Shown here one piece after another: positions 3,985-20,795 of a DNA stretch of 39,483 nucleotides. Source of the stretch: a bacterium. Its GTDB lineage: Bacteria > Vulcanimicrobiota > Vulcanimicrobiia > Vulcanimicrobiales > SCRA01. Positions within the stretch are counted from its first letter, which is position 1. The number at the start of each line of letters is the position of its first letter. The translations under genes and the position numbers were made by a program. Under the pieces are notes generated by a model. The model had not been told where the DNA came from. It saw only the letters and a program-made list of their open reading frames with translations, and searched no databases. The stretch covers positions 1 to 39,483 of the forward strand of contig SCRI01000006.1 of the NCBI GenBank assembly GCA_004298675.1, written 5' to 3'.

Positions 3985-4026
3985 TCCGTGTGTCACTCAC
4001 TTTTAGCGACAGGGAGGGACTCTCAC

Positions 4027-4188
4027 ATGTTCGATCGTTTCACGGCTCTGCTGCGCGATGACGATGGCGTCACCATGGTGGAGTACGGTCTGATGCTGGC
4101 GTTGGTCGCGGTGGTCGCGATCACGGCAGTCACGCTGCTCGGGAACCACGTCTCGGCGCTCTTCAACAACATCGCCGGAGATCTGTGA
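4027..4188 (+). CDS. flp: Flp-type pilin, copy 1 (53 aa)
   Basis: The ATG at 4027 follows GGGAGG at 4012-4017 and gives a 53-residue prepilin. It has a short basic leader ending in Gly14, then VTMVEYGLMLALVAVVAITA, which is the class IVb Flp signature: cleavage after the glycine, Glu at +5 of the mature chain, Tyr next to it. The mature chain is about 39 residues. It is a structural subunit of the Tad fibre. An in-frame GTG at 3988 would add 13 residues but breaks the family start and has no ribosome binding site. The second pilin gene of equal length lies 59 bp downstream across a strong hairpin. Confidence 0.93.
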   Translation: MFDRFTALLRDDDGVTMVEYGLMLALVAVVAITAVTLLGNHVSALFNNIAGDL

Positions 4189-4195
4189 TACCCGC

Positions 4196-4229
4196 GCCCG
4201 CCCGCGAGGCCGAGGCGTCGCGGGCGGGC
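4196..4229 (+). other. Strong hairpin between the two pilin genes
   Basis: A perfect 12-bp inverted repeat, GCCCGCCCGCGA (4196-4207) and TCGCGGGCGGGC (4218-4229), encloses a 10-nt loop. It starts 8 nt after the stop codon of the first flp gene and ends 18 nt before the start of the second. There is no U-tract after it, so it is not a standard intrinsic terminator. Such a structure can protect the 3' end of an upstream mRNA segment or partly stop transcription. Either would raise the ratio of the first pilin over the downstream gene products. That effect is inferred. Confidence 0.6.
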
Positions 4230-4247
4230 CAACCTGAGGGAGGCGAC

Positions 4248-4409
4248 ATGCTACAGTCAGGGATCCAACTGTTGCGCGAAGAGCGCGGAACCACGATGGT
4301 CGAGTACGGTATTCTGCTTGGCTTCATTGCGATCGTGGCCATCGTTGGTGTTGGGGTGTTCGGGCAGGCGGTGCGTGCGCTCTTCACTTCCGATGCTGGG
4401 GCGCTCTAA
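4248..4409 (+). CDS. flp: Flp-type pilin, copy 2 (53 aa)
   Basis: The ATG at 4248 follows a GAGGGAGG purine tract at 4236-4243 and gives 53 residues, exactly the length of copy 1. The leader ends at Gly14, followed by TTMVEYGILLGFIAIVAIVG with the same Glu-Tyr pair at +5/+6. The two pilins differ over much of the hydrophobic helix and tail (VFGQAVRALFTSDAGAL here, LLGNHVSALFNNIAGDL in copy 1), so this is an old duplication rather than a recent repeat. It may be a second fibre subunit or a minor pilin. An upstream GTG/ATG extension through the hairpin was rejected because it would place the hairpin inside the coding region and spoil the short prepilin leader. Confidence 0.93.
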   Translation: MLQSGIQLLREERGTTMVEYGILLGFIAIVAIVGVGVFGQAVRALFTSDAGAL

Positions 4410-4427
4410 GAGCTGTTGGAGAAGCCG

Positions 4428-4949
4428 ATGTCACTTGCGCTCGCCGTCGTCCTCATTGCCGCCTTGGTCGCAGCTGCGACCGATGTGCGCAGCCAACGCA
4501 TCCCCAATGCGCTGACGGTAACGCTCGCGCTTGCCGGACTGATCATCAACGCGGCGCACGGCTGGCCGGCACTCCTCGCCTCGCTCGCGATCATGGTTGG
4601 CGTGTTAGTAGTCGGGTTGGTGGCCCATGCCGGCGGCTGGATGGGCGGAGGCGACGTCAAGCTCATGGCCGCGGCACTGGGGACGCTGGGCGCTGCGGAT
4701 GCGCTGCCGTTCGCGCTGTATACGCTTTTGGCCGGAGGCGCGCTCGCGATCGCGATCAGCATGGTGCGAGGTCGTCTTCTTGAGGTGGCCCGCACTACGC
4801 TTGAGATGGGCGTAACCATCGCGCGCGGTGCCGCTCCGGATAAACCACCGGTGGCAAGCAAGCTACCCTATGGACTCGCGATTGCCTGCGGGTCGATCCT
4901 CGTCACGCTCTCACACACGCTCGTTCCATCCTTGAGGCTGTTACGATGA
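4428..4949 (+). CDS. tadV: Prepilin peptidase TadV/CpaA (A24 family), first copy
   Basis: The 173-residue polytopic inner-membrane aspartic protease matches the compact TadV/CpaA form without the N-terminal methyltransferase part. The two catalytic aspartates are seen in AATDVRSQRIPNAL (about residues 18-31) and in the GxGD motif GGGDVKLMAAALG (about 74-86). Five or six membrane segments follow the family pattern. It cleaves Flp prepilins after the leader glycine. I take ATG 4428, with GGAG at 4418-4421, over an in-frame TTG at 4416. The gene overlaps cpaB by 4 nt (ATGA), so translation is coupled. A second A24 peptidase is encoded at the far end of the operon. Confidence 0.9.
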   Translation: MSLALAVVLIAALVAAATDVRSQRIPNALTVTLALAGLIINAAHGWPALLASLAIMVGVLVVGLVAHAGGWMGGGDVKLMAAALGTLGAADALPFALYTLLAGGALAIAISMVRGRLLEVARTTLEMGVTIARGAAPDKPPVASKLPYGLAIACGSILVTLSHTLVPSLRLLR

Positions 4950-5806
4950 ATACGCGCCGTACGACTCTCCTCATCGCTCTCGTACTCGCAATCGGTACTG
5001 GATTGCTGACGCTCAACTACGTGCGCTCCGTTCAGCAGAGCGCGGGCGAGCGCGGCCAGCCGCGCAGCGTCCTGGTGGCCGTCCAAGACATCCCGGCCCG
5101 CGCGCCGATCAACGCGGGGATGCTGCGCCGCGAGCTGCGCCCGGCCTCGGGTATAGACCCCGACGCGGTTACCGATGAGTCGAAGGCGGTGGGGGCGCTG
5201 GCCTTGATCACCATACCCGCGGGCTCTACGCTGACGGCCTCCAAGATTGGGCGCCCGGCGGACACGGCGTTGCCCGTGCGGTTGGCTCCAGGGATGCGCG
5301 CTCTGACGATTCCGGTAGACCGCGTCAAAGACGTGGCCGGAATGATCCAGCCCGGCGATCGTGTGGACGTCATTGCGATTCCGCCGCGCACCGGCAACTC
5401 GCCGCCCGCGGCCGCGACGATCTTGCGAGGTATCCGCGTGCTGGCGATCGGCGCGAAGCTGGAGTATCCGTCCGCGAGCCCGGGTAGCGGCGACGAGAAC
5501 TCGACCACGGCCACCCTGGAGGTGACTCCCAAGCAGGCCGACCTGCTCGCGATGGCCGACGTCAACACCACCCTGCGGCTCTCACTGCGCTCGCCGCGCG
5601 AGCCGGTAGCGTCATTGGATACCGAGCCGCTGCGGTTTGCCGCGGCCCAGGCCCCGGCACCGGCGAGAGTGGCGCCGGCACCGGACCCGCCAGCCGTCGA
5701 TCCAAAGGCGCTACCGAAGCGTGCGCCAGTGCTCCAGGGCGTGACGATCATCGACGGTGACCGGGTAACGCTCTCCACCGCAAGCAACGGATCGGGCCAG
5801 CCATGA
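4946..5806 (+). CDS. cpaB: CpaB/RcpC Tad pilus assembly protein with SAF domain
   Basis: The 286-residue protein starts with one membrane segment (about residues 7-26), then a SAF domain (about 40-105: VLVAVQDIPARAPINAGMLR to ITIPAGSTLTASKI), then the CpaB/RcpC core with VPVDR-like VKDVAGMIQPGDRVDVIAIP (about 130-150). The C-terminal 50 residues are Pro/Ala-rich. The protein is periplasmic, anchored in the inner membrane, and is thought to link the secretin to the inner platform; SAF folds also bind glycans or peptidoglycan in relatives. It overlaps tadV upstream and the fusion ATPase downstream by 4 nt each (ATGA), so the three are translationally coupled. Confidence 0.9.
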   Translation: MNTRRTTLLIALVLAIGTGLLTLNYVRSVQQSAGERGQPRSVLVAVQDIPARAPINAGMLRRELRPASGIDPDAVTDESKAVGALALITIPAGSTLTASKIGRPADTALPVRLAPGMRALTIPVDRVKDVAGMIQPGDRVDVIAIPPRTGNSPPAAATILRGIRVLAIGAKLEYPSASPGSGDENSTTATLEVTPKQADLLAMADVNTTLRLSLRSPREPVASLDTEPLRFAAAQAPAPARVAPAPDPPAVDPKALPKRAPVLQGVTIIDGDRVTLSTASNGSGQP

Positions 5807-7893
5807 GCGCCGCATACTCCGTCTTCGTCGGGGCCAAGGGTGGCAGCGGCGTTACCAGCATCTGCGTGGCTTTGGCCAAGGCACTGAGCGAAACGCGTAA
5901 GGTGGCGCTAGTCGATGCGGATCTGACCGGCCGGCGCAGCGCCGGGATCCTGCTGGAAGCTCTTCCGGAGCTCGACGCAGCACGCATGCAATCGATCGCC
6001 GCGATCGCGCAACTCGATCGTATCACGGTGGCGGAGTTAGCGCCGTCGTACGGAGCCGCGTTTGCCGTCTCTCTCGGCGAGTCCGAGCAGCTGGCCCTTT
6101 CGCTGCAGGAGCTGGACGTTGTCCTGGTTGACATGCCGCAGCCGTTCGCTGCCGCGGTGCGCCCCTTCATCGCGCGTGCCTCGCGTTGCTTCGTGGTGCT
6201 CGAGCCGACGCTGTTGGGCGTGGCAGGGGCACGCGCCGCGCTCGAGGAGTTGGATGCGTTCGGCGTGCCGCAGTCCAGGCTCTCGCTGTTGGTGAGCCAG
6301 CGCGCGGCGGAGCGGCTGGCGAGTGCCGCGGAGATCGAACGGGCGCTTGGCGTGCGCGTGGTGGCGGAGTTTCCTCCGCTAGCCGAACGCGGCTTCGCGC
6401 GCGCCGTCGCCAAGCTCAAGGCAGAGATCGAAGCAATCGCAGCGGAGCCTTCGCTCGAGGCGCTGCGCTCGTCGAGTCGCGCGCCGGTGGGCGACCGCCG
6501 GCAGCAGCGGCGGGGTGCCGAGCCTGCCAGTAACGGGCATGCCTCCTCATCCGAAGGGGTGGCGCGAACGGATGCTCCAGCGGCGGCTCATGGTGAGCTG
6601 CCGGCACGCGAGTGCCTGAAGCTAAAGATTCACGCCGCGCTGTCCGAGCGCATCGACCTGGTGGCGGCAGGCAACGCTCGCGGGGACGCGGCCAAGATAG
6701 CTCAACTGCGAGAGAGCATCGGGAGGATTGCGCAGGAGGTGCTGGCCGGCGAGCTCGGTGCCCGATCCGCCGAGGACGACGCGCGCCTCAAGCAGGAGAT
6801 CGTCAACGAGACCCTCGGCTTCGGTCCGCTGGAAGACCTGATGGCCGATCCGGATGTCACTGAGATCATGGTCAACGGCTACCAGACGATCTACGCTGAG
6901 CGTTTTGGTGTGATCGAGCTGACGAGCAAGAGATTCGCGAGCGACAAGCAGTTCCGTATCGTCATCGAGCGCATCGTGACCCCGCTCGGCCGGCGTGTCG
7001 ACGAGTCCTCGCCGATGGTAGACGCGCGCTTGAGCGATGGCTCCCGCGTGAACGCGGTGATCGAGCCGATTGCACTCGACGGGGCGATGCTGACGATCCG
7101 CCGCTTCGGCAAACGTCTCCAGGCCACGGATCTCGTGCAGTTAGGTTCGGTGACCCAACAGGTATTGAACTTCTTGAAGGCAGCGGTGCAGGCGCGGCTC
7201 AATGTGGTGATCAGCGGTGGGACGGGGTCAGGAAAAACGACGTTCCTCAACGTGCTCTCCAACTACCTGCCCACCAACGAGCGTATCGTCACCATCGAGG
7301 ATGCCGCCGAGCTCAAGCTGATGCAGCCGCATGTCGTGCGCATGGAGTCGCGTCCACCGAACATCGAGGGACGTGGCGAGATTCGCGCGCGCGATCTCGT
7401 GCGCAACGCGCTGCGCATGCGCCCCGATCGCATCATCGTCGGTGAGGCGCGTGGCGCGGAGGCGCTCGATATGCTCCAAGCGATGAATACCGGCCACGAC
7501 GGTTCCCTTACCACGATCCACGCCAACTCGGCCCGGGATGCCCTCTCGCGTATCGAGACGATGGTGCTGATGGCCGGCTTCGACTTACCCGTGCGCGCTA
7601 TCCGCGAGCAAGTAGCGAGCGCGGTCGATCTCGTCATCCAGGTCGCACGTTTGCACGACGGCTGCCGCAAGGTCGTTTCGATCAGCGAGGTGGTCGGCAT
7701 GGAGGGTGACATCGTGACGATGCAAGAGCTGGTTCGCTACCGGCAGCAAGGCCTCGACCTGGACGGAAAGGTAGCCGGAGAATACCAGTTCACCGGGGTG
7801 CAGCCGCAGTGTCTCAAGCGTTTCGAGGAAGTAGGCGTCGCCTATGACGTCCGCGAGCTCTCGAGCCTGAAGCTGGTGGAGTCGCTATGGTAA
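5803..7893 (+). CDS. TadZ(CpaE)-TadA(CpaF) fusion ATPase of the Tad pilus
   Basis: The 696-residue protein joins two usually separate subunits. Residues 1-215 are a MinD/ParA-type ATPase of the TadZ/CpaE family with a deviant Walker [11 protein letters not shown] (10-19) and a Walker B-like VVLVDMPQP near 107-115; no receiver domain precedes it. Residues about 215-275 are an Arg/Ser/Ala-rich linker. From about 275 to 696 lies the secretion ATPase TadA/CpaF with the N-terminal [20 protein letters not shown], Walker [10 protein letters not shown] (472-480), Walker B-region GEARG (Glu548) and the histidine box [10 protein letters not shown] (His573). All motor residues are present, so the motor half should power pilus extension, and possibly retraction, while the TadZ half would place the machine at the pole. 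The gene overlaps cpaB and tadB by a few nt. There is no separate tadZ or tadA in the window. Confidence 0.92.
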
Positions 7894-8747
7894 CCATGGC
7901 TTCGCTCGCCCTCACCGCCACGTCGATCGCGGTGGCAGCGCTGCTGCTCTACGTCCTCTGGGATGCGCTAGGGACACGCATCTCGCAACGCGTGCGACGC
8001 ACGCGCGATCTCCTCAGCCGAGCGGGCGTCAGTGCGAGTCCTGAGGAGCTGCTGCTCTCGGCCGTGGGAGGCGCGGCGATCCTCTGGATTACCATCGTGA
8101 TGTTCGTACGTCCGTCGCTGCCAATGAGCGCGCTGCTGTTGGCGGCAATTCCGGCCGCAGCGGTTGCTGGTCTCTATCTGTGGCTAAACCTGCGCTACCA
8201 GCGGCGCTTGATGGCCTTCGTGCAGCAACTCGAGTTGGCACTACGCCTCATCGGGAGTGGCCTGCGGGTTGGACTGGGGCTGCGTCAGGCGCTTGCGCTC
8301 AGCTTGGAGGAGCTGCCGGATCCAGCCCGCTACGAGTTTACGCGCGTCATCGGGCAGAGCAACCTCGGCGTCAGCGTCTACGATGCGCTCGACGAACTGG
8401 CCGTACGGATGGCGGGAAACGATACGTTGATGATGGCGCGCGTCATCCGCATTCAGTCGCAAGTTGGAGGCGACTTGGCGAAGGTGCTCGAGCACCTGGC
8501 GACCACGATCAGAGAGCGTCGCCGTATGGACCGCAAGAAGCGGGCGATCACGGCTGAGGGGCGTTCGAGCGCGATCGTCTTGTGCGCCATTCCGCTGGCC
8601 ATCGCCGCCTTCATCATAGCGACGCAAGTCCACATCGGGCATGCTCTCGTGTACACGACCGTTGGGCGCGGAGCGTTGATGGCCGTAGCCGTGCTCGAGC
8701 TGCTCGGGATTGGGACGATTCGCGTGATTTTGCGTAAGTTCGCGTAG
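7887..8747 (+). CDS. tadB: TadB inner-membrane platform protein
   Basis: The 286-residue protein has N-terminal membrane segments (about residues 5-23, 53-98), a central cytoplasmic type II secretion F domain (about 110-225, with LELALRLIGSGLRVGLGLRQ and RVIRIQSQVGGDLAKVLEHL) and C-terminal membrane segments (about 232-280). TadB and TadC form the inner-membrane platform that the TadA motor acts on. The ATG at 7887 overlaps the end of the fusion ATPase; a second in-frame ATG at 7896 is also possible. It lies directly upstream of tadC. Confidence 0.9.
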   Translation: MVTMASLALTATSIAVAALLLYVLWDALGTRISQRVRRTRDLLSRAGVSASPEELLLSAVGGAAILWITIVMFVRPSLPMSALLLAAIPAAAVAGLYLWLNLRYQRRLMAFVQQLELALRLIGSGLRVGLGLRQALALSLEELPDPARYEFTRVIGQSNLGVSVYDALDELAVRMAGNDTLMMARVIRIQSQVGGDLAKVLEHLATTIRERRRMDRKKRAITAEGRSSAIVLCAIPLAIAAFIIATQVHIGHALVYTTVGRGALMAVAVLELLGIGTIRVILRKFA

Positions 8748-8764
8748 AGGTGGAGGAAGGCGTC

Positions 8765-9616
8765 ATGCTGCTGCTCATACCGATCCTCGGTGCCCTATCG
8801 GCGTTTCTCTTCGCGATCTCGCTCATTCCGGTGAAGAGCCCACTGGCGGAGCGCCTGGAGGCGCTGCGTGTGGCGAAGACGCTGGCGGGGCCGGCGAACT
8901 CCACGGCGCGTGCCTTCGAGTTGATCTTCAGCAAAGAGCGCCGTGGGCAGTTGGCACAGCAGTTGGTTGAAGCCGGTTGGTATACCGTGACGCCGGCGCA
9001 GATGGGTTTGCGCGTCGTCGGTGGGGCGTGCCTGGGTGTGGCGCTCGCGCTCGTTGCCCTACATTCGCTGCACCTGCCGTTCGCCGTGCTCGCGCTGCTC
9101 TGCGCGCTGCTCGTGGTTGGCCTCGCCTACGCACCGATCATCTTGCTCAACGGAGCCATTGAGGCCCGCAAGGCGGCTGTCCAACGGGCGCTTCCGGACT
9201 TCCTGGACATGGTTGCCACCACGGTACAGGCCGGGCTCTCGTTGAACGCGGCGCTCGCCTATGCGGTGGATGCCGCCCCTGGGCCGCTGGGAAGCGAGAT
9301 CAAGGAGGCACTCTCCGAGATGCGTCTGGGCCGCTCGCGTGTCGATGCACTCAAGGCCGCGGCGTTCCGCGTGAACCAGCAGGAATTTTCGACCACCGTC
9401 ACCGCCATCACGCAATCTGAGCGCATGGGCACCAATATCGCCGCCGTGTTGAGCGAGGTGGCGGAGGACACGCGTAATCACCGCATCCTGCTGCTCGAGG
9501 AGCGCGCGGCAAAATTACCGGTGCAAATGACGATGCCGATGGCCTTCTTTCTACTGCCGGCTATTTTCGTGGTCATCTTTGGCGCAGCCGCCGCCAACTA
9601 TTTCGCGAGCCGATGA
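8765..9616 (+). CDS. tadC: TadC inner-membrane platform protein
   Basis: The 283-residue protein is the second T2SSF-domain platform subunit: one N-terminal membrane segment, two central ones (about residues 80-125), the F domain (about 140-245: LPDFLDMVATTVQAGLSLNA, AITQSERMGTNIAAVLSEVA) and a C-terminal membrane anchor. I prefer ATG 8765, with GGAGG at 8752-8756 eight nt before it, over an in-frame GTG at 8750 that would place the ribosome binding site inside the gene. The stop overlaps the ATG of the next gene by 4 nt. It pairs with TadB as the core of the fibre-assembly platform. Confidence 0.9.
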   Translation: MLLLIPILGALSAFLFAISLIPVKSPLAERLEALRVAKTLAGPANSTARAFELIFSKERRGQLAQQLVEAGWYTVTPAQMGLRVVGGACLGVALALVALHSLHLPFAVLALLCALLVVGLAYAPIILLNGAIEARKAAVQRALPDFLDMVATTVQAGLSLNAALAYAVDAAPGPLGSEIKEALSEMRLGRSRVDALKAAAFRVNQQEFSTTVTAITQSERMGTNIAAVLSEVAEDTRNHRILLLEERAAKLPVQMTMPMAFFLLPAIFVVIFGAAAANYFASR

Positions 9617-10221
9617 TGCTGGCCGCGATCTCTGGCGCGCTCGTTCTCGGCAGCGTCGGATGGCTGGGTGCGGCCGCCGGATCGGCATTGGTGGCCGAGA
9701 TCGATCCGTTGCCTGAGAGCCCATCTTCGAGCCTGCCGCCGGTACCGTGGCTGGTCGCTGGTTGCGCGGTACTGGGCGCGTTCATCGTGCCGCACGCCGC
9801 GTCGATGCAGATTGGCGTGACCGCGCTCGTCGTCTTTGCACTGGTCGCGGCGTGGTGCAGCGACGTGCAACGCGGAATCGTGCCAGACATTTGTACGCTG
9901 GGACCGTTGGCCGCGATTCTGTTCGTCGCGGCCATCGAGCATCGGCCGGCTGCGTGGCTCTCCGCCACGATCGTCTTCGTGCCGTTTGCCCTCACGGCGT
10001 GGCTCTCCGGCGGGCGTGGTATGGGATGGGGAGACGTCAAGCTCGCCGCGTTAGGTGGCGCGGTGCTTGGCGCGCCGATTGCACTGTCCGCTTTTGCCGT
10101 CGCTTCGGCCGTGGCTGCTGTGGTTCATTGGAATGCCGGGGTCAGGGGGGTTCCCATCGCCTTCGCACCCTACCTAGCCGCTGCGATCGGCATTGGACTC
10201 GCGGCCGGTACGCCACTCTAA
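9613..10221 (+). CDS. Second A24-family prepilin peptidase
   Basis: The 202-residue polytopic protein carries both catalytic motifs of A24 aspartic proteases: CSDVQRGIVPD (about residues 82-92) and the GxGD motif GMGWGDVKLAALGGA (about 136-150). It is longer at the N-terminus than the TadV-type copy at 4428, with about 75 extra residues containing two membrane segments and a Pro/Ser-rich loop, but lacks the cysteine motif of the PilD methyltransferase domain. It probably cleaves prepilins of this pilus, perhaps the TadE/TadG-like ones or one of the two Flp pilins; the division of labour is inferred. It overlaps tadC (ATGA) and the following membrane gene (TAATG). Confidence 0.85.
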   Translation: MMLAAISGALVLGSVGWLGAAAGSALVAEIDPLPESPSSSLPPVPWLVAGCAVLGAFIVPHAASMQIGVTALVVFALVAAWCSDVQRGIVPDICTLGPLAAILFVAAIEHRPAAWLSATIVFVPFALTAWLSGGRGMGWGDVKLAALGGAVLGAPIALSAFAVASAVAAVVHWNAGVRGVPIAFAPYLAAAIGIGLAAGTPL

Positions 10222-11600
10222 TGCGTGTGCGCCGAGAGGTAGCGGCTGTCGCACTCTTGGTTACGGGCGCGCTGCTCTTACAGGGCTTCGCGGTGGCACG
10301 CCACGGTCTGCTGATGGGCGACTTTCGCGCCTTCTTTTGCGGAGCGCAAGCCGCCGCGCACGGCCAGAATCCATATCTCTCTGCGGCCCTGGCAGCGTGC
10401 GAGAGCGTCCCGGAACCGGCCGGGCTCTTTCAGACCGCCGCCGGTACGGTGGTGCCGGCGCCGCTGCCGCCGTATGCGTATGCGTGCTTCTGGCCGCTCG
10501 TATTCCTGCCGTTTCCTCTGGCAGCCGTGCTGTGGTTCGCCATCTTGCTGGGCGCATGCGCGGTCTGCGCGCGTAGTCTCGTACGAATTGCGAGCGTGGA
10601 ATACGCCGATGCTTGGGCGCTGCTGGCGTTCGCGCTGGTGGGCCTCTCCGTGCCGTTGGGCGAGATCGTGCCGCTGGTCCTCGCGGCGCTCTGCTTGGCG
10701 GCCCTTGCCGTCGAGCGCGGTGCGCTCGCGGTGGCAGTAGCCTGGTGCGCGCTAGCGATGATCGAGCCGCATGTGGCGTTGCCGGCGCTCTGTGCGCTGG
10801 CGTTGTGGCGTCCTGCCGCGCGCGTACCGGTGGCCATGTGTGCGAGCGTGCTCGTTGCGCTCTCCGTGGTGCTGGTCGGTCCGGCAACGATGCTCTCGTA
10901 CATCACGAAGGTGCTGCCGGCCCATGCGTTGGCCGAACTGCCTCGCAATACGCAGTTCAGTCTTGCGTGGATTGCGTGGCGTTTGGGCGTGGAGGACGGA
11001 TTGGCGCTGCGCCTGGGTTCACTCTCCTACGTCGTGATGTTGGCGCTGGGCATCGTCGTTGCGGGAGTACTGGCGCGCCGTTGGAAGCGACCCGCCGCGC
11101 TCGTGCTGCTGCCGGCGACGGCGGTGCTCTTGGGGGGCGTATTCATTCACATTGGGCAGATGGCCGTGGCGCTGCCGTTCGTTGCGCTGGCATTGCACCA
11201 TGCCCGGCGTGGGCGTTGGGCGCTGCAATTGGCGCTGCTGCTGCTGGCTCTGCCGTTTCAATACGTGGCGCAGGAGCCCTGGGCACTCTTGCTCGCGGCA
11301 CCGTTATGCGGATGGCTGATCTGGCGTTTCGTGCGCGCCGATGTGCTGCTCGCGATACGCGGCGCGTCCGCGCTCGTATTGCTCGATAGTGCGCTCATGT
11401 TCGCGCTGGTGGAGTGGCAGCCGGTGGCAGCGCTGCAGACGCTCTCCGTGCCGCCGATCGATCCGGCGCTACCGCAGAGTTCGTGGGCCGCGATGATTCG
11501 CGCGCAGGCGGTGGGAAACGGCGCTGCCTGGCTGTTCAAACTTCCGACCTGGCTGGCGCTGGTCGCAACGCTGGGAGTTGTCGTTGGGGAACGGCCGTGA
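10221..11600 (+). CDS. DUF2029/GT87-like polytopic membrane protein 1
   Basis: The 459-residue protein has about ten membrane segments. An acidic loop after the first segment carries GDFRAFFCGAQ (Asp34), followed by NPYL, a Cys-Glu pair (60-61), PAPLPPYA (79-86), MIEPHVALP (180-188) and FIHIGQMA (about 310). The loop aspartate after the first membrane segment followed by DPY-type residues resembles GT-C glycosyltransferases of the DUF2029/GT87 group, which use polyprenyl-phosphate sugars. The ATG at 10221 overlaps the stop of the A24 peptidase by one base, so the gene belongs to the tad operon. A role in modifying pilin or pilus-associated glycan is inferred. A longer upstream reading in the same frame overlaps the peptidase gene and is rejected. 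Confidence 0.7.
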   Translation: MRVRREVAAVALLVTGALLLQGFAVARHGLLMGDFRAFFCGAQAAAHGQNPYLSAALAACESVPEPAGLFQTAAGTVVPAPLPPYAYACFWPLVFLPFPLAAVLWFAILLGACAVCARSLVRIASVEYADAWALLAFALVGLSVPLGEIVPLVLAALCLAALAVERGALAVAVAWCALAMIEPHVALPALCALALWRPAARVPVAMCASVLVALSVVLVGPATMLSYITKVLPAHALAELPRNTQFSLAWIAWRLGVEDGLALRLGSLSYVVMLALGIVVAGVLARRWKRPAALVLLPATAVLLGGVFIHIGQMAVALPFVALALHHARRGRWALQLALLLLALPFQYVAQEPWALLLAAPLCGWLIWRFVRADVLLAIRGASALVLLDSALMFALVEWQPVAALQTLSVPPIDPALPQSSWAAMIRAQAVGNGAAWLFKLPTWLALVATLGVVVGERP

Positions 11601-13027
11601 TACGCCGCTTGCTGCTCGCGGTTGCGATGGGCGTCGCCGTGGCCGTGCTGCTGGAGCTGGCTACCGTCTCTGGGCGCAGCATGATTGACTTCACGGCGTT
11701 CTATTGCGCTGGCCAGACGATACAGGATCACGGAGACCCCTACCGCGCGCAGCCGCTGGGAGCCTGCGAGGCGAGGCGCGGGGATGAAGGTATCTTTCGC
11801 GTGAGGCACGTCGTGATGCCGGCTCCTCTGCCACCGTATGCGCTCGCTCCTTTTGCAGAACTAGCAAGACTGCCTTATGAGCGCGCGCTCGCGGTATGGC
11901 GCGTGCTGCTGATCGCGGGAATTCTCGCGACGATTGTAGCGCTGCGAAAGGCAGCGGAGCTGCCGTGGCCTGTCGTAGCGCTAGCGTTGCTGACGACTGA
12001 CGTGGTTGCGGGGGTGCTCCCTGGCCAGCCGGTTCCGCTGGTCGTTGCGGCAATCGGCATCGGCGCGTGGGCGCTCGGGCGAGGCGATGATCGTCTTGCC
12101 GGTGCTGCCGCATGCGTTACGATGCTGGAGCCGCATCTTGGGCTACCGGTGTGTCTCACGCTCTTTCTTTGCCGTCCGAGGGCGAGGGCTGTCATCGCCG
12201 GCGGTGCCGTTGCGGCGTCGGTGCTCGCGGTTACCATCATGCCGCTCTCGATGAATCTCGAGTTCTTGACGCAGGTCCTGCCGAAGCATGCGGCCACCGA
12301 GATACCATGGTTTGGACAATATAGCCTTACGCACGCGCTCTTCGTTCTAGGCGCCAGCGATCACTTCGCGCTGACCGCAGGGCTGCTCTCTTACGTCGCG
12401 ATGTTCCTATTTGCCGTCATCGTAACGCCTCGCGCCGCGCGTTGCCTTGGTGCACCGGGCCTCCTCGTCGCGCTTCCTCCGGCTGCGGTAGTCCTTGGGG
12501 GCACGTACATTCATCTCCCTCAGATGGCGGCAGCGGTACCCGCGGCGCTGATTCTAGCCGGGCGAGCGAAGGGAACCGTTTCCGGTCTTGGGAAAGCGGC
12601 GGTCGTGCTCTTGACCGTGCCGGGTATCCTGTTCGGAGCCACCGGCGTTGCGTTCGTCGCGGCGGGCATCGCGTTATTGCTTACGGTGCTGCTTTTCCGG
12701 CCTCTGCCGGTCGTAAGCACTGCCGTAGCCGCCACCGTGCTCAGCATTGGGATGACGTTGCACGGTTTGCACCCCGTTAAACGAACGCCGGGGCAGTGGT
12801 CCGTCGCCGCCGCGGCTCGGGCAGACGAGTTGGCGGATGACTCGTGGGGCCGCTTCGTGCGTGAAGAGGATCCTGGGCTCAAGGAACATCGCTTGGAATT
12901 GCTCGCGGCACTGCCAACCTGGGCGGGCCTCGGTCTGCTGTGCGGCGCTGCGGCCTTAGGCGCCTGCGCCGGCGCGCGGAGCCAACAGCGGTCCGAGACT
13001 GCGCTTCCAGATCCATGCCGCGGCTAA
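11597..13027 (+). CDS. DUF2029/GT87-like polytopic membrane protein 2
   Basis: The 476-residue protein is a paralogue of the preceding one. It shows IDFTAFYCAGQ (Asp31), GDPY, a Cys-Glu pair (57-58), PAPLPPYA (75-82), MLEPHLGLP and YIHLPQMAAAVP at matching places, and ends with a conserved extracytoplasmic loop containing ADDSWGRF before a last membrane segment LPTWAGLGLL. The GTG at 11597 overlaps the previous stop (GTGA), so the genes are coupled. The C-terminal 72 nt overlap the end of a convergent gene. Function is inferred as for copy 1: a GT-C type sugar transferase or a protein derived from one. Confidence 0.68.
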   Translation: MIRRLLLAVAMGVAVAVLLELATVSGRSMIDFTAFYCAGQTIQDHGDPYRAQPLGACEARRGDEGIFRVRHVVMPAPLPPYALAPFAELARLPYERALAVWRVLLIAGILATIVALRKAAELPWPVVALALLTTDVVAGVLPGQPVPLVVAAIGIGAWALGRGDDRLAGAAACVTMLEPHLGLPVCLTLFLCRPRARAVIAGGAVAASVLAVTIMPLSMNLEFLTQVLPKHAATEIPWFGQYSLTHALFVLGASDHFALTAGLLSYVAMFLFAVIVTPRAARCLGAPGLLVALPPAAVVLGGTYIHLPQMAAAVPAALILAGRAKGTVSGLGKAAVVLLTVPGILFGATGVAFVAAGIALLLTVLLFRPLPVVSTAVAATVLSIGMTLHGLHPVKRTPGQWSVAAAARADELADDSWGRFVREEDPGLKEHRLELLAALPTWAGLGLLCGAAALGACAGARSQQRSETALPDPCRG

Positions 13028-14113
13028 GCCGAGGACGATGACTGCGAGAAGCCTGAGCCAGGTTCCAACGTAGGGGATGGCGGGCAGCAGGTAGATCACA
13101 AATGCCGCACGCGTGCGCAGCGGCTCTGGCGCCTGCGCAACTAAAAGCAGCAGCATCGGGAGGAGCATGACGGCATCGTAGGCATACGCGTGGGGAGAGA
13201 TCGCGAGCCCGATCATGCACGCGGCCGCGCCGGCCTCCGTGGCTCCCTGCCGTGTGAGTCCCGGCAGCGCCAATGCGAGGAGCGCAACGGCGGAACCGAT
13301 CGCCAGCGGGAGCGGCGCTCCGATCGATTGGACCAAGCTGGGCAGACTCAACGTTTGGTGGGCGTTGAAGAGCGCGTCGGCACGGTAGTACGCTGCAATG
13401 GCGCGCGCCTGGTGCAGCGGCCAGGCCGAGTCACCCCCGGTTGCCGCAACGCTCAACAGATACCACACCGCGGCCATCGCGACAACGACGACGCATTCCC
13501 GCCAGCGGCGCCGGATCAGGAGCAGCCCGAGCAGCGGCAACGCGAACGTTGGCTTGTACAGCAGCAGCCCGATGGGGATTGCGGTGAGGAGCGGACGTTG
13601 CGCGGCCAGTCCGCCGATCGCGAGGGTGGCGAGTAGGACCCCTAGCGGAGCATTCTGCCCGATGGTGACAGCGTCACCGATCGGCGCCCAGGCTAGGCTC
13701 GCCACGATGCCTAGCGACGCGGGGAGATTGAAGATGCGCGCGCCGGCAAGCCCGGCGCCGGCGGCGCATGCGAGCATCACGACGGCGTTGACGTAGAACG
13801 AGGCGAAAATCGAGAGGTGACTGCCGGGAGCATACGCGTATGCCACGGCGGGCGGATATGGGAAGATGGCCGTGGCGGTCGTTTGAATTCCGTGTGTATG
13901 CTGAAACGCGCGGAAGAGCGAGGGATCACTCAGCGCATGAGTCCCCGCGAGCCTCCCCGCGGAGTAAAACGTGAGCCAGTCGGCGAGCATGTGCGGCGGG
14001 CCCAGCACTGCTCTCAATGGGAGCAACCCCACGATACTCAGGGTGACGCCCCATGCGATGAGACGGTGCCGTGCGTCGCGACTCTTTCTCTCGTCGCCCG
14101 CGACGTTGATCAT
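12956..14113 (-). CDS. DUF2029 (GT87-family) glycosyltransferase
   Basis: The 385-residue polytopic protein is the most typical DUF2029 member of the group. After the first membrane segment it has ADWLTFYSAGRLAG (Asp45) and DPSLFRAFQHTHG, then FPYPPAVAYAYAP, and alternating membrane segments to the end. In this family the loop aspartate acts in transfer from a polyprenyl-phosphate sugar on the outer face of the inner membrane. It lacks the Cys-Glu and PAPLP signatures shared by the other three. It starts at 14113, overlapping the end of the upstream minus-strand gene by 4 nt (ATGA), and its last 72 nt overlap the convergent gene. Confidence 0.75.
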   Translation of the reverse strand: MINVAGDERKSRDARHRLIAWGVTLSIVGLLPLRAVLGPPHMLADWLTFYSAGRLAGTHALSDPSLFRAFQHTHGIQTTATAIFPYPPAVAYAYAPGSHLSIFASFYVNAVVMLACAAGAGLAGARIFNLPASLGIVASLAWAPIGDAVTIGQNAPLGVLLATLAIGGLAAQRPLLTAIPIGLLLYKPTFALPLLGLLLIRRRWRECVVVVAMAAVWYLLSVAATGGDSAWPLHQARAIAAYYRADALFNAHQTLSLPSLVQSIGAPLPLAIGSAVALLALALPGLTRQGATEAGAAACMIGLAISPHAYAYDAVMLLPMLLLLVAQAPEPLRTRAAFVIYLLPAIPYVGTWLRLLAVIVLGLAAAWIWKRSLGPLLAPRAGAGA

Positions 14114-15552
14114 CCGGAGGTCGCCTCCGGCTGAACCCCATGCGTGCCCGATCTCCGCGACGGCAGCGCCCTTGAGATCGCGCTCCAGAGCAGGAGGATG
14201 AGGCCAACCCAGGTTAGCGCTCTACTCCACCAAGCCGCCGCGCTCCCATGCGAGTAGGTGGCGGCGACCTCGATCGTCCAGCTGGCCTCGGCGAGCGCTC
14301 GTGGTTGACCGGTAGCATGCGCAAGAGTTCCCGTGTGTGGCAGCCATACGTTGAGGAGCACGAGCGCGAGCGTTGCGATGACGGTGAGGACGAGGCCGAG
14401 GCGCATCCCGAGAAAACAGCACGCGAGTACGAGCACGGCAAGTGTTGCGACGATGATGGGGTCGCCGGTGAACGCGACGAACTCCCATGGCACGGCCAAC
14501 AACAGCAGCGCAAGCACGGCTAGAAGGCGGCCCTGTTCCGTTTTCGTGGAGAGGACGAGCGCGAGTGGTATCGCGGCGGCAATCTGATCGGCGTGCATGT
14601 AGGGACCGCCGAGCACGACGAACGCTGCGGGCGCAAAGACGAGGTACGCTGGATCGCGCCCGTTCGCGTAGAGGCGCCCCGCGACGAGAATTCCCAGCAA
14701 AGCCATGACCAGGTATGATAGCTCCCCGTAGTGGGCCGCCGCCGTCGCCGAGAGGCCAAACGCATAGAGCACCGCGCTCAAGCTGAACTGAAAGATGTGG
14801 CGCAGTTCCGCAGCGGTCTGAGCCGGCAAGACGCGCGTCATATACTCGACGTTTTCGGAGAGGCCGAGGAACGCAAACGAAAGCGCGGCAAGTGCCAAGA
14901 TCCCGATCATCAATACGGGACGTGAACGCGGCGCCCACAGGGCAAGCGAGATGACGATGGGCAGCGCAAGGTGAGGCTCGATCATTGCTACCGTGGCCGC
15001 GGCCGCCGCGAGAGCGTATCGTTCGTGCCGCAGCCACAGCGCACACAGCGAGATGGCGCATATCGAGATCGGCGCCGGGTTACCTGCCGCTAGCGGAAAG
15101 ACGATCAGGGGCAGGAACGAGGCGCTGAAGACGACCCAGCGCTCGATTCCGGTTAGGAGCGACAGCACGTGCACGGAGAGCACGAATGCGCCGATGAGCA
15201 CGAGAGCCCAGACGCCCGCCGCCATTCGATACGGGAGCAGCGATAAGGGCACGAACGCGGCGATGGCGTATCCCGGCAGCGGTGCCGGCACGACGATATG
15301 GTTACGGGTGTGAACGAGAAACGGACCCGTGGACTTGGACTCGCAATCGTAGAGCGGTTGTTGAAGGTACGGGTCGTCGCGCTGCGTTGCCGTCGTGGCG
15401 GCGCAGTAGAAGGCTTTGAAGTCGATCATCCACGGACTCTGGCGCATCGCGAAACGCGGGATGGAGAACGCCACGGCGAGCACCATCAGGGCCGTAACCG
15501 CCACCATGAGCGCCGGATTTGCTGAACGCAGCCGCTGGATCACCTCGTTCAT
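14110..15552 (-). CDS. DUF2029/GT87-like polytopic membrane protein 3
   Basis: The 480-residue protein has the same signatures as the two plus-strand paralogues: IDFKAFYCAATT (Asp44), DDPYL, a Cys-Glu pair (70-71), PAPLPGYA (89-96), MIEPHLALP, YMHADQIAAAIP, and a C-terminal loop with EASWTIEV before the last membrane segment. The start is ATG 15552, with GGGAG about 6 nt upstream; an open frame continues to 16053 but that part is a shadow of the cyclase gene. It is the first gene of a two-gene minus-strand unit with the DUF2029 protein, and diverges from the cyclase gene. Being on the other strand from its paralogues suggests an inverted duplication that has diverged. Confidence 0.68.
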   Translation of the reverse strand: MNEVIQRLRSANPALMVAVTALMVLAVAFSIPRFAMRQSPWMIDFKAFYCAATTATQRDDPYLQQPLYDCESKSTGPFLVHTRNHIVVPAPLPGYAIAAFVPLSLLPYRMAAGVWALVLIGAFVLSVHVLSLLTGIERWVVFSASFLPLIVFPLAAGNPAPISICAISLCALWLRHERYALAAAAATVAMIEPHLALPIVISLALWAPRSRPVLMIGILALAALSFAFLGLSENVEYMTRVLPAQTAAELRHIFQFSLSAVLYAFGLSATAAAHYGELSYLVMALLGILVAGRLYANGRDPAYLVFAPAAFVVLGGPYMHADQIAAAIPLALVLSTKTEQGRLLAVLALLLLAVPWEFVAFTGDPIIVATLAVLVLACCFLGMRLGLVLTVIATLALVLLNVWLPHTGTLAHATGQPRALAEASWTIEVAATYSHGSAAAWWSRALTWVGLILLLWSAISRALPSRRSGTHGVQPEATSG

Positions 15553-16101: not shown

Positions 16102-17309
16102 CGGGCATCGGCGTCATCTGCCCCGCCGGCCACGATCCCGCTTCGCTCTGGGCGGGTGTAGCTTCCGGAGCGAGTTTCGTGCGGCGCATCACGCGCTTCG
16201 ACCCCGCGCCTTTCCGCTCGCAGGTCGCCGGTGAGATCACCGGGTTCGATCCTCTGGAGCGTTTGGACGGCAAGCTCGCCAAGCGCCTCGACCGTTTCTC
16301 GTCATTGGCCGTGGTAGCGGCGGAGGATGCGTTGCGCGACGCGGCTCTCATGCGCGTCGAGGAGCCGGAGGAGTTCGGCGTGAGCATCGGCAGCGCGCTA
16401 GGCGGGGCGGCATTGGCCGAGGACCAGCATCAACGCTATCTCGTAGGCGGCATCGGCGCGGTACGCCCCGTGCTGGCCATCTCCGTTTTCGGGGCCGCCG
16501 CGGCGTGCAACGTCGCGCAGCATTGCGCGCTGCACGGCCCAACCCTCGGCAATACCAATTCGTGTGCTAGCGGGGTGACGGCGATCGGTGAGGCCTGCCT
16601 GTTGATGCAGCAGGGGCGTGCGCGCCGTATGCTGGCCGGCGGCGTCGAGGCTCCGTTGGCCCCGCTGACCTTCGGCGCCTTCGATCTCTTGCGCGCAATG
16701 TCGGCGAAATGGAACGCTGCGCCGGCGCGCGCGTCGCGCCCGTTCGATCGCGCTCGCGACGGTTTTGTGATGGCCGAAGGGGCCGCCATCTTCGTGCTGG
16801 AGCGCGCGGAGGATGCCGTGCGGCGCGGCGCGCACGTCTATGGATCGATCGCAGGCTTCGGCCTGAGTAATGACGCCTTCCACATGTCGGCACCGCGCGA
16901 GGACGGCAGCGACTCCGCGCGCTCCATGCTGACCGCCCTCGCCGACGCCGGCATGACGCCGCAGGAGGTGGAGTGCGTGAGCGCGCACGGCAGCGGTACT
17001 CCACCCGGTGATGCCGCCGAGGCGCGGGCGCTCGAGCGCGTGCTGGGGGAACGGCTTCCGCGCGTCCCGGTGGTGGCGACCAAAGGCTGCCATGGCCACG
17101 CGCTGGGCGCGACCGGTGCGCTGGAGGTGGCGATCGCGCTCTTGGCGCTGGAGCGCGGCGAGGTGCCGCCCAGCGTCAACGCCGACGATCCCGATGAGCC
17201 GGTGGCGGTGGCCGCTGCGGCACGCTCCATGCGCATCGAAAACGTCTTGAAGAACACCGCCGGCTTCGGCGGTCTCAACGCGGCGTTGGTGCTGCGGAGG
17301 GAGGCGTAG
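16083..17309 (+). CDS. FabF-like beta-ketoacyl-ACP synthase with non-canonical start
   Basis: From 16083 the protein has 408 residues, close to FabF length. It opens NIAVTGIGVICPAGHD, aligning with the FabF N-terminus, and has the catalytic Cys in NTNSCASGVTAIGEA, His in SAHGSGTPPGDAAE, Lys/His in TKGCHGHALGATGALE and the GFGG loop near the end. It therefore should condense malonyl-ACP with acyl-ACP. No ATG, GTG or TTG exists in frame between the stop at 16014 and GTG 16179, and starting at 16179 would remove the first strand and loop. GGAGGG at 16071-16076 is well spaced for ACG at 16083 (or CTC at 16086; ATC at 16092 is too far). The coordinates use ACG. It overlaps the cyclase gene by 19 nt and the convergent GT39 gene by 35 nt. 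No acyl carrier protein or chain-length factor is nearby. Confidence 0.8.
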   Translation, partial: TLNIAVTGIGVICPAGHDPASLWAGVASGASFVRRITRFDPAPFRSQVAGEITGFDPLERLDGKLAKRLDRFSSLAVVAAEDALRDAALMRVEEPEEFGVSIGSALGGAALAEDQHQRYLVGGIGAVRPVLAISVFGAAAACNVAQHCALHGPTLGNTNSCASGVTAIGEACLLMQQGRARRMLAGGVEAPLAPLTFGAFDLLRAMSAKWNAAPARASRPFDRARDGFVMAEGAAIFVLERAEDAVRRGAHVYGSIAGFGLSNDAFHMSAPREDGSDSARSMLTALADAGMTPQEVECVSAHGSGTPPGDAAEARALERVLGERLPRVPVVATKGCHGHALGATGALEVAIALLALERGEVPPSVNADDPDEPVAVAAAARSMRIENVLKNTAGFGGLNAALVLRREA

Positions 17310-18846
17310 AGAGCGCGGCATGCGCGCGCTTGCGATACTCGCGCCAGTGGCGCTCCGCGTCCGGCAGCAGCACGGCGTTATCGGTATGGTAGACCGGCCA
17401 CTTCACGCCCGCGATCGCTACCAGCGGATAGCGCTGCAGCCAATGGTAGAGGTCGCTGTTGGCGCGCATGCGGCGGGATTCCACGTCGATGAAATAGCGC
17501 GCGCCTTTGCGAATGGCGCTCTCTTGATCGAAAGGCGTCCACACGGCCGGGTCCTCTTCCCAACCGTAGCGGTTGATGTAGTAGAGGATGGCGGGATCGT
17601 AGTGCCCCATCACCACGAGTACGTCCTTGGGCAGCCCGCCGTCCAGCGCGCGCGCCTGCTCGTAGACGCCGGTGCGCCAGACGTAGTACTTGGCGACGCG
17701 CGCGCGGTCGATGGCCGTCGTTGCGGCGAGCGCGATCGCGGCCACGAGCAGCCACGCCACTCGTTCGGCGTGACCGACCGGACGCGCGCGCTGGTAGAGC
17801 CATCCGCTGGCGCCGCCGCCGAACAGCGCCGCCAACGGCAACACGGGATACAGATAGTAGTCGACTGGCTCGACGGTGACGACCGCGAATCCGTAGAGCG
17901 CCACCGCCGCCAGCCACGTCCACAGTAGCGTGGCGCCGGGCAGTGCGCGCGCCGCCAGCAGCACGACGCCTGCCACAGCTAGCAGACATCCGACGGGGCC
18001 CAGCATCGTCTGCCACAGGAAGTGCCACTCGTGGATGAAGGCCATCGACTTTGCCGCGAGCGCCGCGGGCGAGTACAGCGCCTCCAATAGCGCAGGGAGT
18101 ACGTGCCGCTGCGTGATTCCGCTGGCCCAGTGCCACTCCGCGATGGCGTGCTCGAAGCGCAGGTAGGCGACGAGCGGAATGAAGGCGACCGCGGCATACA
18201 GCCACGTCGCGGGCCGCAGGATCGTGGCACGCAGGCCGTGACGCCGGATGCCTAGGGCCACGATCGGCAGCGCCCCCAGCAGCGCCACCGGTTTGGCGAG
18301 AAACGCCAGCAGCGCCAGCAGCGCGGGGCGCCAGAACGAGCGCGTCTCTCCGGCGTGGTCTTCCAACCAGCACCAGGTGGCATAGAGCGCGGCGGTGAGG
18401 AAGAAGACCATCGTCGTGTCGGGCATGAAGGTGCGCCCGTAATAGACGCTCCCCGGGTAGACGGCGAAGAGGAACGCGGCCGCCGCCCCCGCCACGCTGC
18501 TGGCGAAGAGACGCCGCGCGAAGAGGCCGGTGAGGGCGATCGTACCCAGCGAGAACGCGATACTCAACAGACGTCCGAAGACTTCGTGCACGCCGAAGAT
18601 CTTGTAGAGCGTGGCAGCGAGAAAGGGCACGATCTGCAGCTCCAACTCCACGTAGTTGGGCGGCGGACCGTCGTAGTTGGTCTGCGGAAGGAACGGGTTG
18701 TAGCGCAGGAGTGCGAAGTTGCGTGCGATGGAGGCGGTATCGCCCTGGCGCCAGGACGGATGATCCAACAACGGGTCGTGGACACCGTGGAGGCGCAGCA
18801 CGAAGCCCAGCAGCAGCGCGGCCAGCAGCGCGAGACGAAAGCTCAC
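17275..18846 (-). CDS. GT39/ArnT-like membrane glycosyltransferase
   Basis: The 523-residue polytopic protein has about eleven membrane segments. The first extracytoplasmic loop has LDHPSWRQGDTASIARNFA (Asp about 40), and later ones PGSVYYGRTFMPD and DYYLYPVLPL, the layout of dolichyl/polyprenyl-phosphate mannosyltransferase (PMT, GT39) and ArnT relatives. The C-terminal part (about 390-500) is a soluble periplasmic domain (VLVVMGHYDPAILYYINRYG). It should move a sugar from a polyprenyl carrier to a lipid, glycan or protein. It overlaps gtrA by 4 nt and is the last gene of a three-gene glycosylation operon. Substrate cannot be read from sequence. Confidence 0.82.
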   Translation of the reverse strand: MSFRLALLAALLLGFVLRLHGVHDPLLDHPSWRQGDTASIARNFALLRYNPFLPQTNYDGPPPNYVELELQIVPFLAATLYKIFGVHEVFGRLLSIAFSLGTIALTGLFARRLFASSVAGAAAAFLFAVYPGSVYYGRTFMPDTTMVFFLTAALYATWCWLEDHAGETRSFWRPALLALLAFLAKPVALLGALPIVALGIRRHGLRATILRPATWLYAAVAFIPLVAYLRFEHAIAEWHWASGITQRHVLPALLEALYSPAALAAKSMAFIHEWHFLWQTMLGPVGCLLAVAGVVLLAARALPGATLLWTWLAAVALYGFAVVTVEPVDYYLYPVLPLAALFGGGASGWLYQRARPVGHAERVAWLLVAAIALAATTAIDRARVAKYYVWRTGVYEQARALDGGLPKDVLVVMGHYDPAILYYINRYGWEEDPAVWTPFDQESAIRKGARYFIDVESRRMRANSDLYHWLQRYPLVAIAGVKWPVYHTDNAVLLPDAERHWREYRKRAHAALSTPPSAAPTPR

Positions 18847-19265
18847 GCGCGGTCCTTAAACGTCCAATACTTGTTGACGAAGAAGTTCAGAAACATTCCC
18901 GAGACGGTCGCCGCGAACCAGACGCGGTGATTGCCGGCCACGTGCAGCGGGCCCTTCAGGAACCACGAGACCAGATCGCCGAGCAGCAACGCGAGGAACG
19001 AGACGGTGAGAAACTGCATGCCCTCGCGGCCGGGGTGACCGCTCGAGCGAAACGTCCAGACACGGTTGAGCGCGTAGTTCGAGACGCCGCCCAGCATGAA
19101 CGCGATGGAGAAGTCCCAGATGAACGGCCAGTGCGTGGCTTTGTCGAGGACGGTGAACGCGATGAGGTTGACGACGAAGCCGCTGGCCCCCACGATACCG
19201 AACTTGACGAACTGGCGCACGCCCCGGCGCGCGATGGCTGCGGCTACGAAGTTACGGGTAGTCAC
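18843..19265 (-). CDS. GtrA-family membrane protein
   Basis: The 140-residue protein has four membrane segments in the GtrA arrangement: FVKFGIVGASGFVVNLIAFT, then FSIAFMLGGVSNYALNRVWTF with the typical N-x-x-W-T-F motif, a third segment near 85-102 and a last one ending FLNFFVNKYWTF, which repeats the motif. GtrA proteins are thought to flip polyprenyl-phosphate sugars across the inner membrane, feeding GT-C transferases. Its place between a PIG-V-like and a GT39-like transferase, with immediate adjacency upstream and a 4-nt overlap downstream, fits that role. Confidence 0.88.
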   Translation of the reverse strand: MTTRNFVAAAIARRGVRQFVKFGIVGASGFVVNLIAFTVLDKATHWPFIWDFSIAFMLGGVSNYALNRVWTFRSSGHPGREGMQFLTVSFLALLLGDLVSWFLKGPLHVAGNHRVWFAATVSGMFLNFFVNKYWTFKDRA

Positions 19266-20795
19266 CTATGCGATCCAATACCAATCGGCGAAGAGGACGG
19301 TAAAAAGTCCTAAGAGTGGGAGACTGAACGCCACGACGGCGTTATTGACGGCGGGGCGGCGGCCCCAGATTGCGAGCACCATGAAGATGGGGAAGAGCAC
19401 CAGCGCAAAGCGCGGCATACTCATCAAGCTCGAGGTCGACAGCGGAATGGCGATGGAGAGCAGCATGTACACCCAATAGGACGTCCGCAGCGTGCGAAGT
19501 CCCAGAGCGAGCATGGCGATCATGAGCGCGGTGAAGACCAACTCGATGCTCTGATAGGCGATCGATGACGGTAGATGCGCGTGCGTGATCAGATGGATGC
19601 TGTTGCCGACGCTGACCCAAGGCGGAGCGAGGTGGCGATGCCAGTGACTCTGCACGTGTGAAAAGTAGAGCGGATCGCCGACGAGGACCCAGAGATAGCC
19701 CATGTACGCGAGCATTCCCGAGGGTACCAGGGCGATTCCAGCCACGCTGCGCCACGAGATGCGTTCACCGCTGCGATGCGCCGCCCACCATTCGATGGCA
19801 AAGGGCACGAAGAGCAGTACGCCTTCGACCCGCGTGGCTGAGGCGCAGGCGCCGATGAGGCCGGCCAGGAGCCACTGACGTTGGCGGATATAGTAAAACG
19901 ACGCAACCGTGAGAGCGAAGAAGAGCGATTCGGTGTAGACCGCCGAGAAGAAGATCGCCGTGGGAAAAATCGAGATGTAGAAGATGGCGCGGTAGGCTAC
20001 ACGGCGGTCGTGCAGCTCGTGCTCCACCAGTTTGTAAAAGAAGAGCAGTCCGAGGTAGAGCGCGACGTTAGAGACGATCAAGCCGGCCACCAGGTGTGAG
20101 CCGGTGAATTTGCCGAGGATTGCCAACAGCATCGGGTAGAGCGGGAAGAAGGCCATGTTGGTGCCATGGTAGCCGCCGGTGGCGATCTCGATGTAGTGCT
20201 GCGCGTCCCAGCGTCCCCAGACCGTGAGCAGGAGATCGTGGGAGGCGGCCCAGTGCGTCCCGGCGCGCTGCCCGATCAGCGTCGCGCCGAGCAGCGCGAT
20301 GATGATCAGTGGGATGCGCGTCACCAGATACGTGACGGTGACTTCACGGACGGTCTGATTGAGACGGGTGGCCGCCAGTAGTTTCACCGCTCCCCAGAGC
20401 GCGGCGGTAACGATGAGCACGGGGCCCTCGGGGAGCACCCGGAACGGAAGCAGCAGCAGCGGCAGCCACAGCAGATACACCGGCAGGAAGCTCCACGCAT
20501 CCAGCACCAGTGCGGTGCGATGGGAGATGCCGGTCCGCCAGGAGAGATAGTTGGCGTACCCTCGCCAGGCCGCGATGCAGGCCGCCAGACCGAGTGGCAG
20601 CGCTACCGCCAGCACCAGGTCCGTAAACGCGAGCAGCGCATGCAGGTGCGAGACGGCGGTGTACCAACCGAAGAAACCGGCCGTTAAGCCGGCGCCGGCT
20701 ACCCCGGCAAGGGGAGCGGGCCCCGCGGCATAAAGAAGCCCCTGAAAGAGGGGTCGTACACCGGTTGGTGGTGCGTGGTTGCTGCGCGCCGACAT
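19266..20795 (-). CDS. PIG-V-like mannosyltransferase (GT-C)
   Basis: The 509-residue polytopic protein has about 12 membrane segments. The PIG-V family signature is visible as WGRWDAQHYIEIATGGY (about residues 192-208) followed by FFPLYPMLLAILGKF, and later ESLFFALTVASFYYIRQRQW and ATRVEGVLLF. The acidic loop WD is the expected catalytic site. Bacterial members are annotated as mannosyltransferases using polyprenyl-phosphate-mannose. It starts the minus-strand operon with gtrA and the GT39-like gene, whose promoter should lie in the spacer shared with glpX. The acceptor is unknown. Confidence 0.8.
   Translation of the reverse strand: MSARSNHAPPTGVRPLFQGLLYAAGPAPLAGVAGAGLTAGFFGWYTAVSHLHALLAFTDLVLAVALPLGLAACIAAWRGYANYLSWRTGISHRTALVLDAWSFLPVYLLWLPLLLLPFRVLPEGPVLIVTAALWGAVKLLAATRLNQTVREVTVTYLVTRIPLIIIALLGATLIGQRAGTHWAASHDLLLTVWGRWDAQHYIEIATGGYHGTNMAFFPLYPMLLAILGKFTGSHLVAGLIVSNVALYLGLLFFYKLVEHELHDRRVAYRAIFYISIFPTAIFFSAVYTESLFFALTVASFYYIRQRQWLLAGLIGACASATRVEGVLLFVPFAIEWWAAHRSGERISWRSVAGIALVPSGMLAYMGYLWVLVGDPLYFSHVQSHWHRHLAPPWVSVGNSIHLITHAHLPSSIAYQSIELVFTALMIAMLALGLRTLRTSYWVYMLLSIAIPLSTSSLMSMPRFALVLFPIFMVLAIWGRRPAVNNAVVAFSLPLLGLFTVLFADWYWIA

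Follow-up and report, generated by a model that had tools for sequence, protein, structure and literature searches.

A lineage-specific subfamily of GT87 membrane proteins associated with tad pilus loci in Candidatus Eremiobacterota

The window studied here, 39,483 nucleotides of contig SCRI01000006.1 (C49 of the 3.0 Mb genome assembly GCA_004298675.1, from an uncultured member of Candidatus Eremiobacterota), includes a tad pilus operon and, next to it, four genes coding for polytopic membrane proteins of the Pfam family GT87 (PF09594, formerly DUF2029). Three of these proteins, designated A, B, and C (genes at positions 10221, 11597, and 14110), belong to a subfamily defined by a set of signature motifs. 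This subfamily is real, lineage-specific, and new as far as our literature search goes; searching for GT87, DUF2029, or Eremiobacterota together with pili returned nothing. The fourth protein (gene at 12956) is a plain GT87 protein. Across genomes, the tie of the signature subfamily to Tad pili is strong, not exclusive.

The signature subfamily and its fold

All four window proteins scored above the curated GT87 cut-off of 25 bits (protein C only narrowly, with 25.4) and were aligned over nearly the whole model, and an aspartate in the first loop is present in all of them. Proteins A, B, and C are paralogues (34–39% identity, BLASTP E values of 5e-46 to 1e-54), and E values of 5e-46 or better rule out a chance resemblance of their motifs. 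An earlier reading of the window, made from the sequence only, had proposed that the three share one set of signatures, and every motif that it listed was found. In A, B, and C, respectively, the motifs are GDFRAFFC, IDFTAFYC, and IDFKAFYC after the first membrane span; ACES, ACEA, and DCES at the Cys-Glu pair; PAPLPPYA, PAPLPPYA, and PAPLPGYA; MIEPHVALP, MLEPHLGLP, and MIEPHLALP; HIGQMA, HLPQMA, and HADQIA at the late His; and SSW, DSW, and ASW at the C-terminal Ser-Trp-type motif. The same reading took the 12956 protein for a plain DUF2029 protein, and this was borne out by its GT87 score (48.1 bits), the absence of the Cys-Glu and PAPLP marks, and the lack of a significant BLASTP match to protein C. 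While the GT87 family is common to the four proteins, the three differ by an invariant Cys50, Cys70-Glu71, PxPxPxYA, and E-P-H/Q (residues are numbered as in protein C).

Conservation was assessed in alignments of 45 rows from relatives and 56 rows from named genome records and in a 113-member set. Cys50 and Cys70 were found in all or nearly all members, and Pro61-Tyr62, Glu71, Pro91, Pro93, Tyr95, Gly157, Pro193, Gln255, His320, and Trp425 are close to invariant. The first-loop aspartate, D44, is shared by 99 of 111 signature homologues. It was lost in a few clades away from tad, where Ser, Asn, or Ala replaces it and the cysteines are kept; one such copy lies on contig C80 of the window's own genome. 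All 20 tad-linked copies tested, including the three in the window, have D44, versus 38 of 48 unlinked copies (p 0.03). The conservation of the signatures across homologues, on which the sequence-only reading had staked its proposal, was therefore confirmed by the near-invariant motifs and the aspartate count.

A peptide scan of one genome per species (about 85,000 species) found 38 loci, nearly all in Candidatus Eremiobacterota or records titled bacterium MAG, and one in a record titled Rhodospirillales; the scan used one strict, most-conserved peptide and may miss distant members elsewhere. In the phylum as a whole, the family was detected at an E value of 1e-20 in 82 of 149 genomes, all in the order of the window save one genome of the same class. 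Genomes carry one to eight signature copies. That of the window has its fourth on C80 and further GT87 proteins on contigs C50, C42, and C74. At five loci (L010, L011, L012, L015, and L020) two signature domains lie in one uninterrupted frame of 930–1040 codons, possibly coding for fused proteins.

The structure of protein C, the one modelled among the four, was predicted by AlphaFold with a predicted local distance difference test score (pLDDT) of 91.1 and a predicted template modelling score (pTM) of 0.92. The best fold match in the PDB was PimE (9dm5; E 2.4e-5, template modelling score of 0.56 by query and 0.68 by target), followed by ALG3 and PIG-U. A search by sequence against solved structures gave a weak PimE match only (E 0.52), and for this reason the GT-C fold assignment rests on the model. 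The Pfam scores of all four proteins and this fold match uphold the GT87/GT-C identity suggested earlier.

PimE is a mycobacterial polyprenyl-phosphomannose-dependent mannosyltransferase (PDB 9dm5 and 9dm7) that acts on a glycolipid; D58 is its essential base, residues Y62, Y92, Q163, K195, and W319 are also essential, and K195 binds the donor phosphate with W319 and H322 (PMC12041525). The signature proteins resemble PimE in the D58-like Asp after the first span. In a weak sequence alignment, PFTYPPFA of PimE is matched with PAPLPPYA, and Gly157 with the Gly that precedes Q163 of PimE. However, the signature proteins have M-I/L-E-P-H where PimE has K-L-T-P (the subfamily consensus in this region is Met-Ile-Glu-Pro-His/Gln), and the basic residue equivalent to K195 is missing. 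Other differences are found at Y92 (L/Y/F) and Q163 (E/Q/N), the acceptor-binding D160/Y161 are not kept, and the overall identity is 15%. The invariant His320 may take the place of PimE H321/H322. In view of the missing basic residue, we class the signature proteins as GT87/GT-C by sequence and fold and not as PimE-type enzymes. Cys50 and Cys70 are placed on adjacent helices within the first loop, where they may form a disulfide.

Association with tad loci

In a set of 61 genomes in which the Tad ATPase or the secretin served as Tad markers, the family was present in 43 of 45 genomes with a marker versus 3 of 16 without (Fisher p 8e-9, a value that ignores shared ancestry). Phylum-wide, it was found in 63 of the 66 genomes with a Tad ATPase. 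The distances between genes, taken from the positions of search matches, placed 49 of 127 signature copies within 20 kb of a tad marker, and in eight assemblies of nine or fewer contigs this was the case for 13 of 21 copies. PMT_2, another GT-C family, was used as a control in the form of its best-scoring matches. Among the matches listed, none of 154 was within 10 kb of tad and 4 were within 20 kb, which differs from the signature copies at 20 kb with a p of 1.5e-15. This control rejects a general enrichment of GT-C proteins near tad, since it shows none within 10 kb among the matches listed. The plain GT87 type is the most tad-linked, with 15 of 20 homologues in relatives within 20 kb, and it can be discarded that the fourth protein of the window is incidental.

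On a tree of 70 rows, 12 changes suffice to explain the tad-linked label, versus 18.3 when it is shuffled; linked and unlinked copies are interspersed yet clustered. An exclusive tie of the subfamily to Tad is ruled out by this tree and by the many copies elsewhere. A subfamily linked to Tad is supported by conservation, co-occurrence across genomes, and proximity compared with the PMT_2 control, but about 60% of the copies (a smaller share in well-assembled genomes) are away from tad. The finding that would have spoken against the tie, homologues mostly distant from tad loci, is true in raw counts; we did not take it as a refutation because the enrichment near tad is very large.

In relatives, signature copies are located at either end of tad loci, some past the second prepilin peptidase and others adjacent to the secretin and TadE. 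Two genomes of the same genus have orthologues of protein A, 69% identical, in the same place, and orthologues of protein B in same-genus genomes are 61–66% identical; the gene for protein C is missing at the equivalent place in two of them. In two same-genus genomes a small DUF192-like gene, named by likeness to one family-scanned protein (cluster c20), separates the second prepilin peptidase from protein A (L078:11574-11925 and L079:6047-6398). The window has no such gene. The interposed gene rules out translational coupling to the prepilin peptidase as a general feature.

A possible role in glycosylation

We tentatively favour pilus-linked glycosylation as the function of these enzymes, at a probability a little short of even. 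In this mechanism, the four proteins would be inner-membrane GT87 GT-C glycosyltransferases that receive a sugar at the periplasmic face from a polyprenyl-phosphate carrier and transfer it to an acceptor within the cell envelope; D44 of protein C is the putative catalytic base. The tad-linked copies would decorate parts of the Tad pilus (Flp or subunits of the TadE/TadG type) or glycans produced along with them. This reading draws on the GT87 scores, the modelled fold, the retained Asp and cysteines, the co-occurrence with Tad, the proximity of both GT87 types to tad, and the GT2, acyltransferase, and DUF2142 genes that adjoin several tad and glycosyltransferase clusters. A membrane glycosyltransferase gene beside a pilus locus has a parallel in TfpW, a GT-C enzyme responsible for arabinosylation of group IV pilin in Pseudomonas, the product of which is known experimentally. 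The likeness is one of description, and TfpW serves type IV pili, not Tad. A second parallel is RcpC (CpaB), which earlier work cited in PMC12307814 implicated in Flp glycosylation. A CpaB gene is part of the tad operon of the window (4946-5806), but RcpC is a periplasmic ring protein and not a membrane glycosyltransferase.

Several observations weigh against pilus-linked glycosylation. The mature Flp pilins, of about 38 amino acids, have very few Ser/Thr residues. In the three signature proteins, both candidate positions for PimE K195 are occupied by non-basic residues. The co-occurrence statistic does not take into account the common descent of the 61 genomes, and 61% of all copies fall outside the 20-kb range around tad, a share inflated by contig breaks. 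In addition, the second tad locus of the window's genome, complete-looking (C74:41490-49568; L117:8490-16568), has no GT87-like gene detected beside it, and two genomes (G005 and G020) carry Tad without the family; because of these cases, the enzymes are not considered necessary for Tad.

A serious alternative, though one we rate clearly below an even chance, is that these are GT-C enzymes for general envelope glycolipids or a surface polysaccharide, in which case the vicinity of tad would be a preferred location of surface genes and the substrate would be something other than the pilus. Such a role agrees with the glycolipid substrate of PimE (PMC12041525), with the scarcity of sites on the mature pilins, and with the location of most copies away from tad, including conserved tandem pairs next to genes of the ftsA and dnaE types. 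The variable copy number and the missing protein C gene in two same-genus genomes are also reminiscent of fast-changing surface-glycan loci. However, the presence of the family follows Tad across genomes, PMT_2 is not clustered near tad (within 10 kb, among the matches listed), and the plain GT87 homologues are mostly tad-linked.

The idea that some or all signature proteins are non-catalytic partners or scaffolds, like PIG-U, which keeps the GT-C fold without sugar transfer, appears quite improbable. PIG-U is among the fold matches, the phosphate-binding Lys of PimE has no counterpart, the base aspartate is replaced in several clades that retain the cysteines (the C80 copy among them), and there are tandem pairs with one or both members lacking the Asp (L069). 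Nevertheless, the aspartate is kept in every window copy and every tad-linked copy tested, and the invariant polar residues predicted to lie in or near the active site (Q255, H320, and PxPxPxY) suggest a working site. The notion of non-catalytic membrane proteins put forward in the sequence-only reading is thus not supported for the window copies, although some copies away from tad have lost the Asp.

A more specific form of pilus-linked glycosylation, a dedicated Tad-pilus system in which a GT87 subfamily specific to the order, braced by a disulfide and altered at the donor-phosphate site, works with a plain GT87 partner, is in our judgment rather unlikely. If it existed, it would, to the extent of the literature search, be without precedent as a glycosyltransferase set linked to Tad pili. 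Little work has addressed how the very short pilins of these widespread adhesion machines are modified. Should the enzymes decorate the pilus, they would supply defined glycosyltransferase candidates for a Tad system and a way into the surface biology of a largely uncultured phylum. A GT-C subfamily without the essential phosphate-binding Lys of PimE but with the base Asp would also provide a test of the flexibility of the GT-C mechanism.

Locus layout and neighbouring genes

The tad pilus operon spans about 4.0–10.2 kb of the window on the plus strand (Table 1). Each of the two Flp prepilins has a G↓x(4)E-Y cleavage motif in its open reading frame translation, and the mature pilins are very short. 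The gene for protein A overlaps that of the second prepilin peptidase by one base and that of protein B by four bases, which agrees with the coupling described earlier for the window. The description of all four genes as attached to the end of the tad operon was correct for A and B and incorrect for the other two, which are encoded on the minus strand, run towards the tad operon, and overlap each other by four bases (14110-14113); their strand excludes an operon containing all four. The 3′-ends of the protein B gene and the plain GT87 gene overlap by 72 bases.

Table 1. Genes of the tad and GT87 region of the window.
Feature	Position	Strand	Basis
TadE-like minor pilin/pseudopilin gene	26-466	-	Sequence; adjoins secretin in relatives too
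TadG-like minor pilin/pseudopilin gene	472-1620	-	Sequence; adjoins secretin in relatives too
RcpA/CpaC secretin	1668-3101	-	Pfam Secretin 139 bits; pilus formation N-terminal domain 48.5 bits
Two Flp prepilin genes	~4021-4188 and 4185-4409	+	Open reading frame translations; assigned by motif inspection
First prepilin peptidase	4416-4949	+	Pfam Peptidase_A24 56.6 bits
CpaB/RcpC-type protein	4946-5806	+	Sequence and position; kept in tad loci of relatives
TadZ-TadA fusion (MinD/ParA-like domain and T2SSE ATPase)	5803-7893	+	Pfam T2SSE 221 bits, CbiA 36 bits
TadB-type inner-membrane platform protein	7887-8747	+	Operon position, sequence; homologue at same place in relatives
TadC-type inner-membrane platform protein	8750-9616	+	Operon position, sequence; homologue at same place in relatives
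Second prepilin peptidase (CpaA/TadV type)	9613-10221	+	Pfam Peptidase_A24 43.1 bits
Signature GT87/GT-C protein A, 459 amino acids	10221-11600	+	Pfam GT87 32.8 bits; signature motifs
Signature GT87/GT-C protein B, 476 amino acids, GTG start	11597-13027	+	Pfam GT87 42.9 bits
Plain GT87 protein, 385 amino acids	12956-14113	-	Pfam GT87 48.1 bits
Signature GT87/GT-C protein C, 480 amino acids, first gene of minus-strand pair	14110-15552	-	Pfam GT87 25.4 bits

Two further GT-C type membrane proteins, of the PMT_2 and PIG-V families, are encoded on the minus strand at 17275-20795 of the window, about 7–10 kb from the tad operon. The protein encoded at 3256-3984 has a domain of weak likeness to the copper amine oxidase N-terminal type, and many tad loci across the order have this protein in the interval from the secretin to the first prepilin peptidase.

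DUF192-type genes adjoin the second prepilin peptidase in other relatives as well, and genes for GT2, acyltransferase-3, and DUF2142 membrane proteins were found near several clusters of tad and glycosyltransferase genes. A polytopic membrane protein of about 470–520 amino acids (cluster c9; L082, L083, L088, L096, and L100) recurs beside the second prepilin peptidase or the glycosyltransferase genes, with no Pfam match for the one member scanned. Directly upstream of the signature genes, many relatives (L081, L083, L085, L087, L088, L089, L090, L094, and L111) encode a BTAD-domain protein of about 490 amino acids with an AAA-like N-terminus, which is probably a transcription regulator. Away from tad, four genomes of one genus (L101, L102, L106, and L108) have a conserved tandem pair of signature genes, flanked to one side by genes of the dnaE and ftsA types and to the other by further conserved genes.

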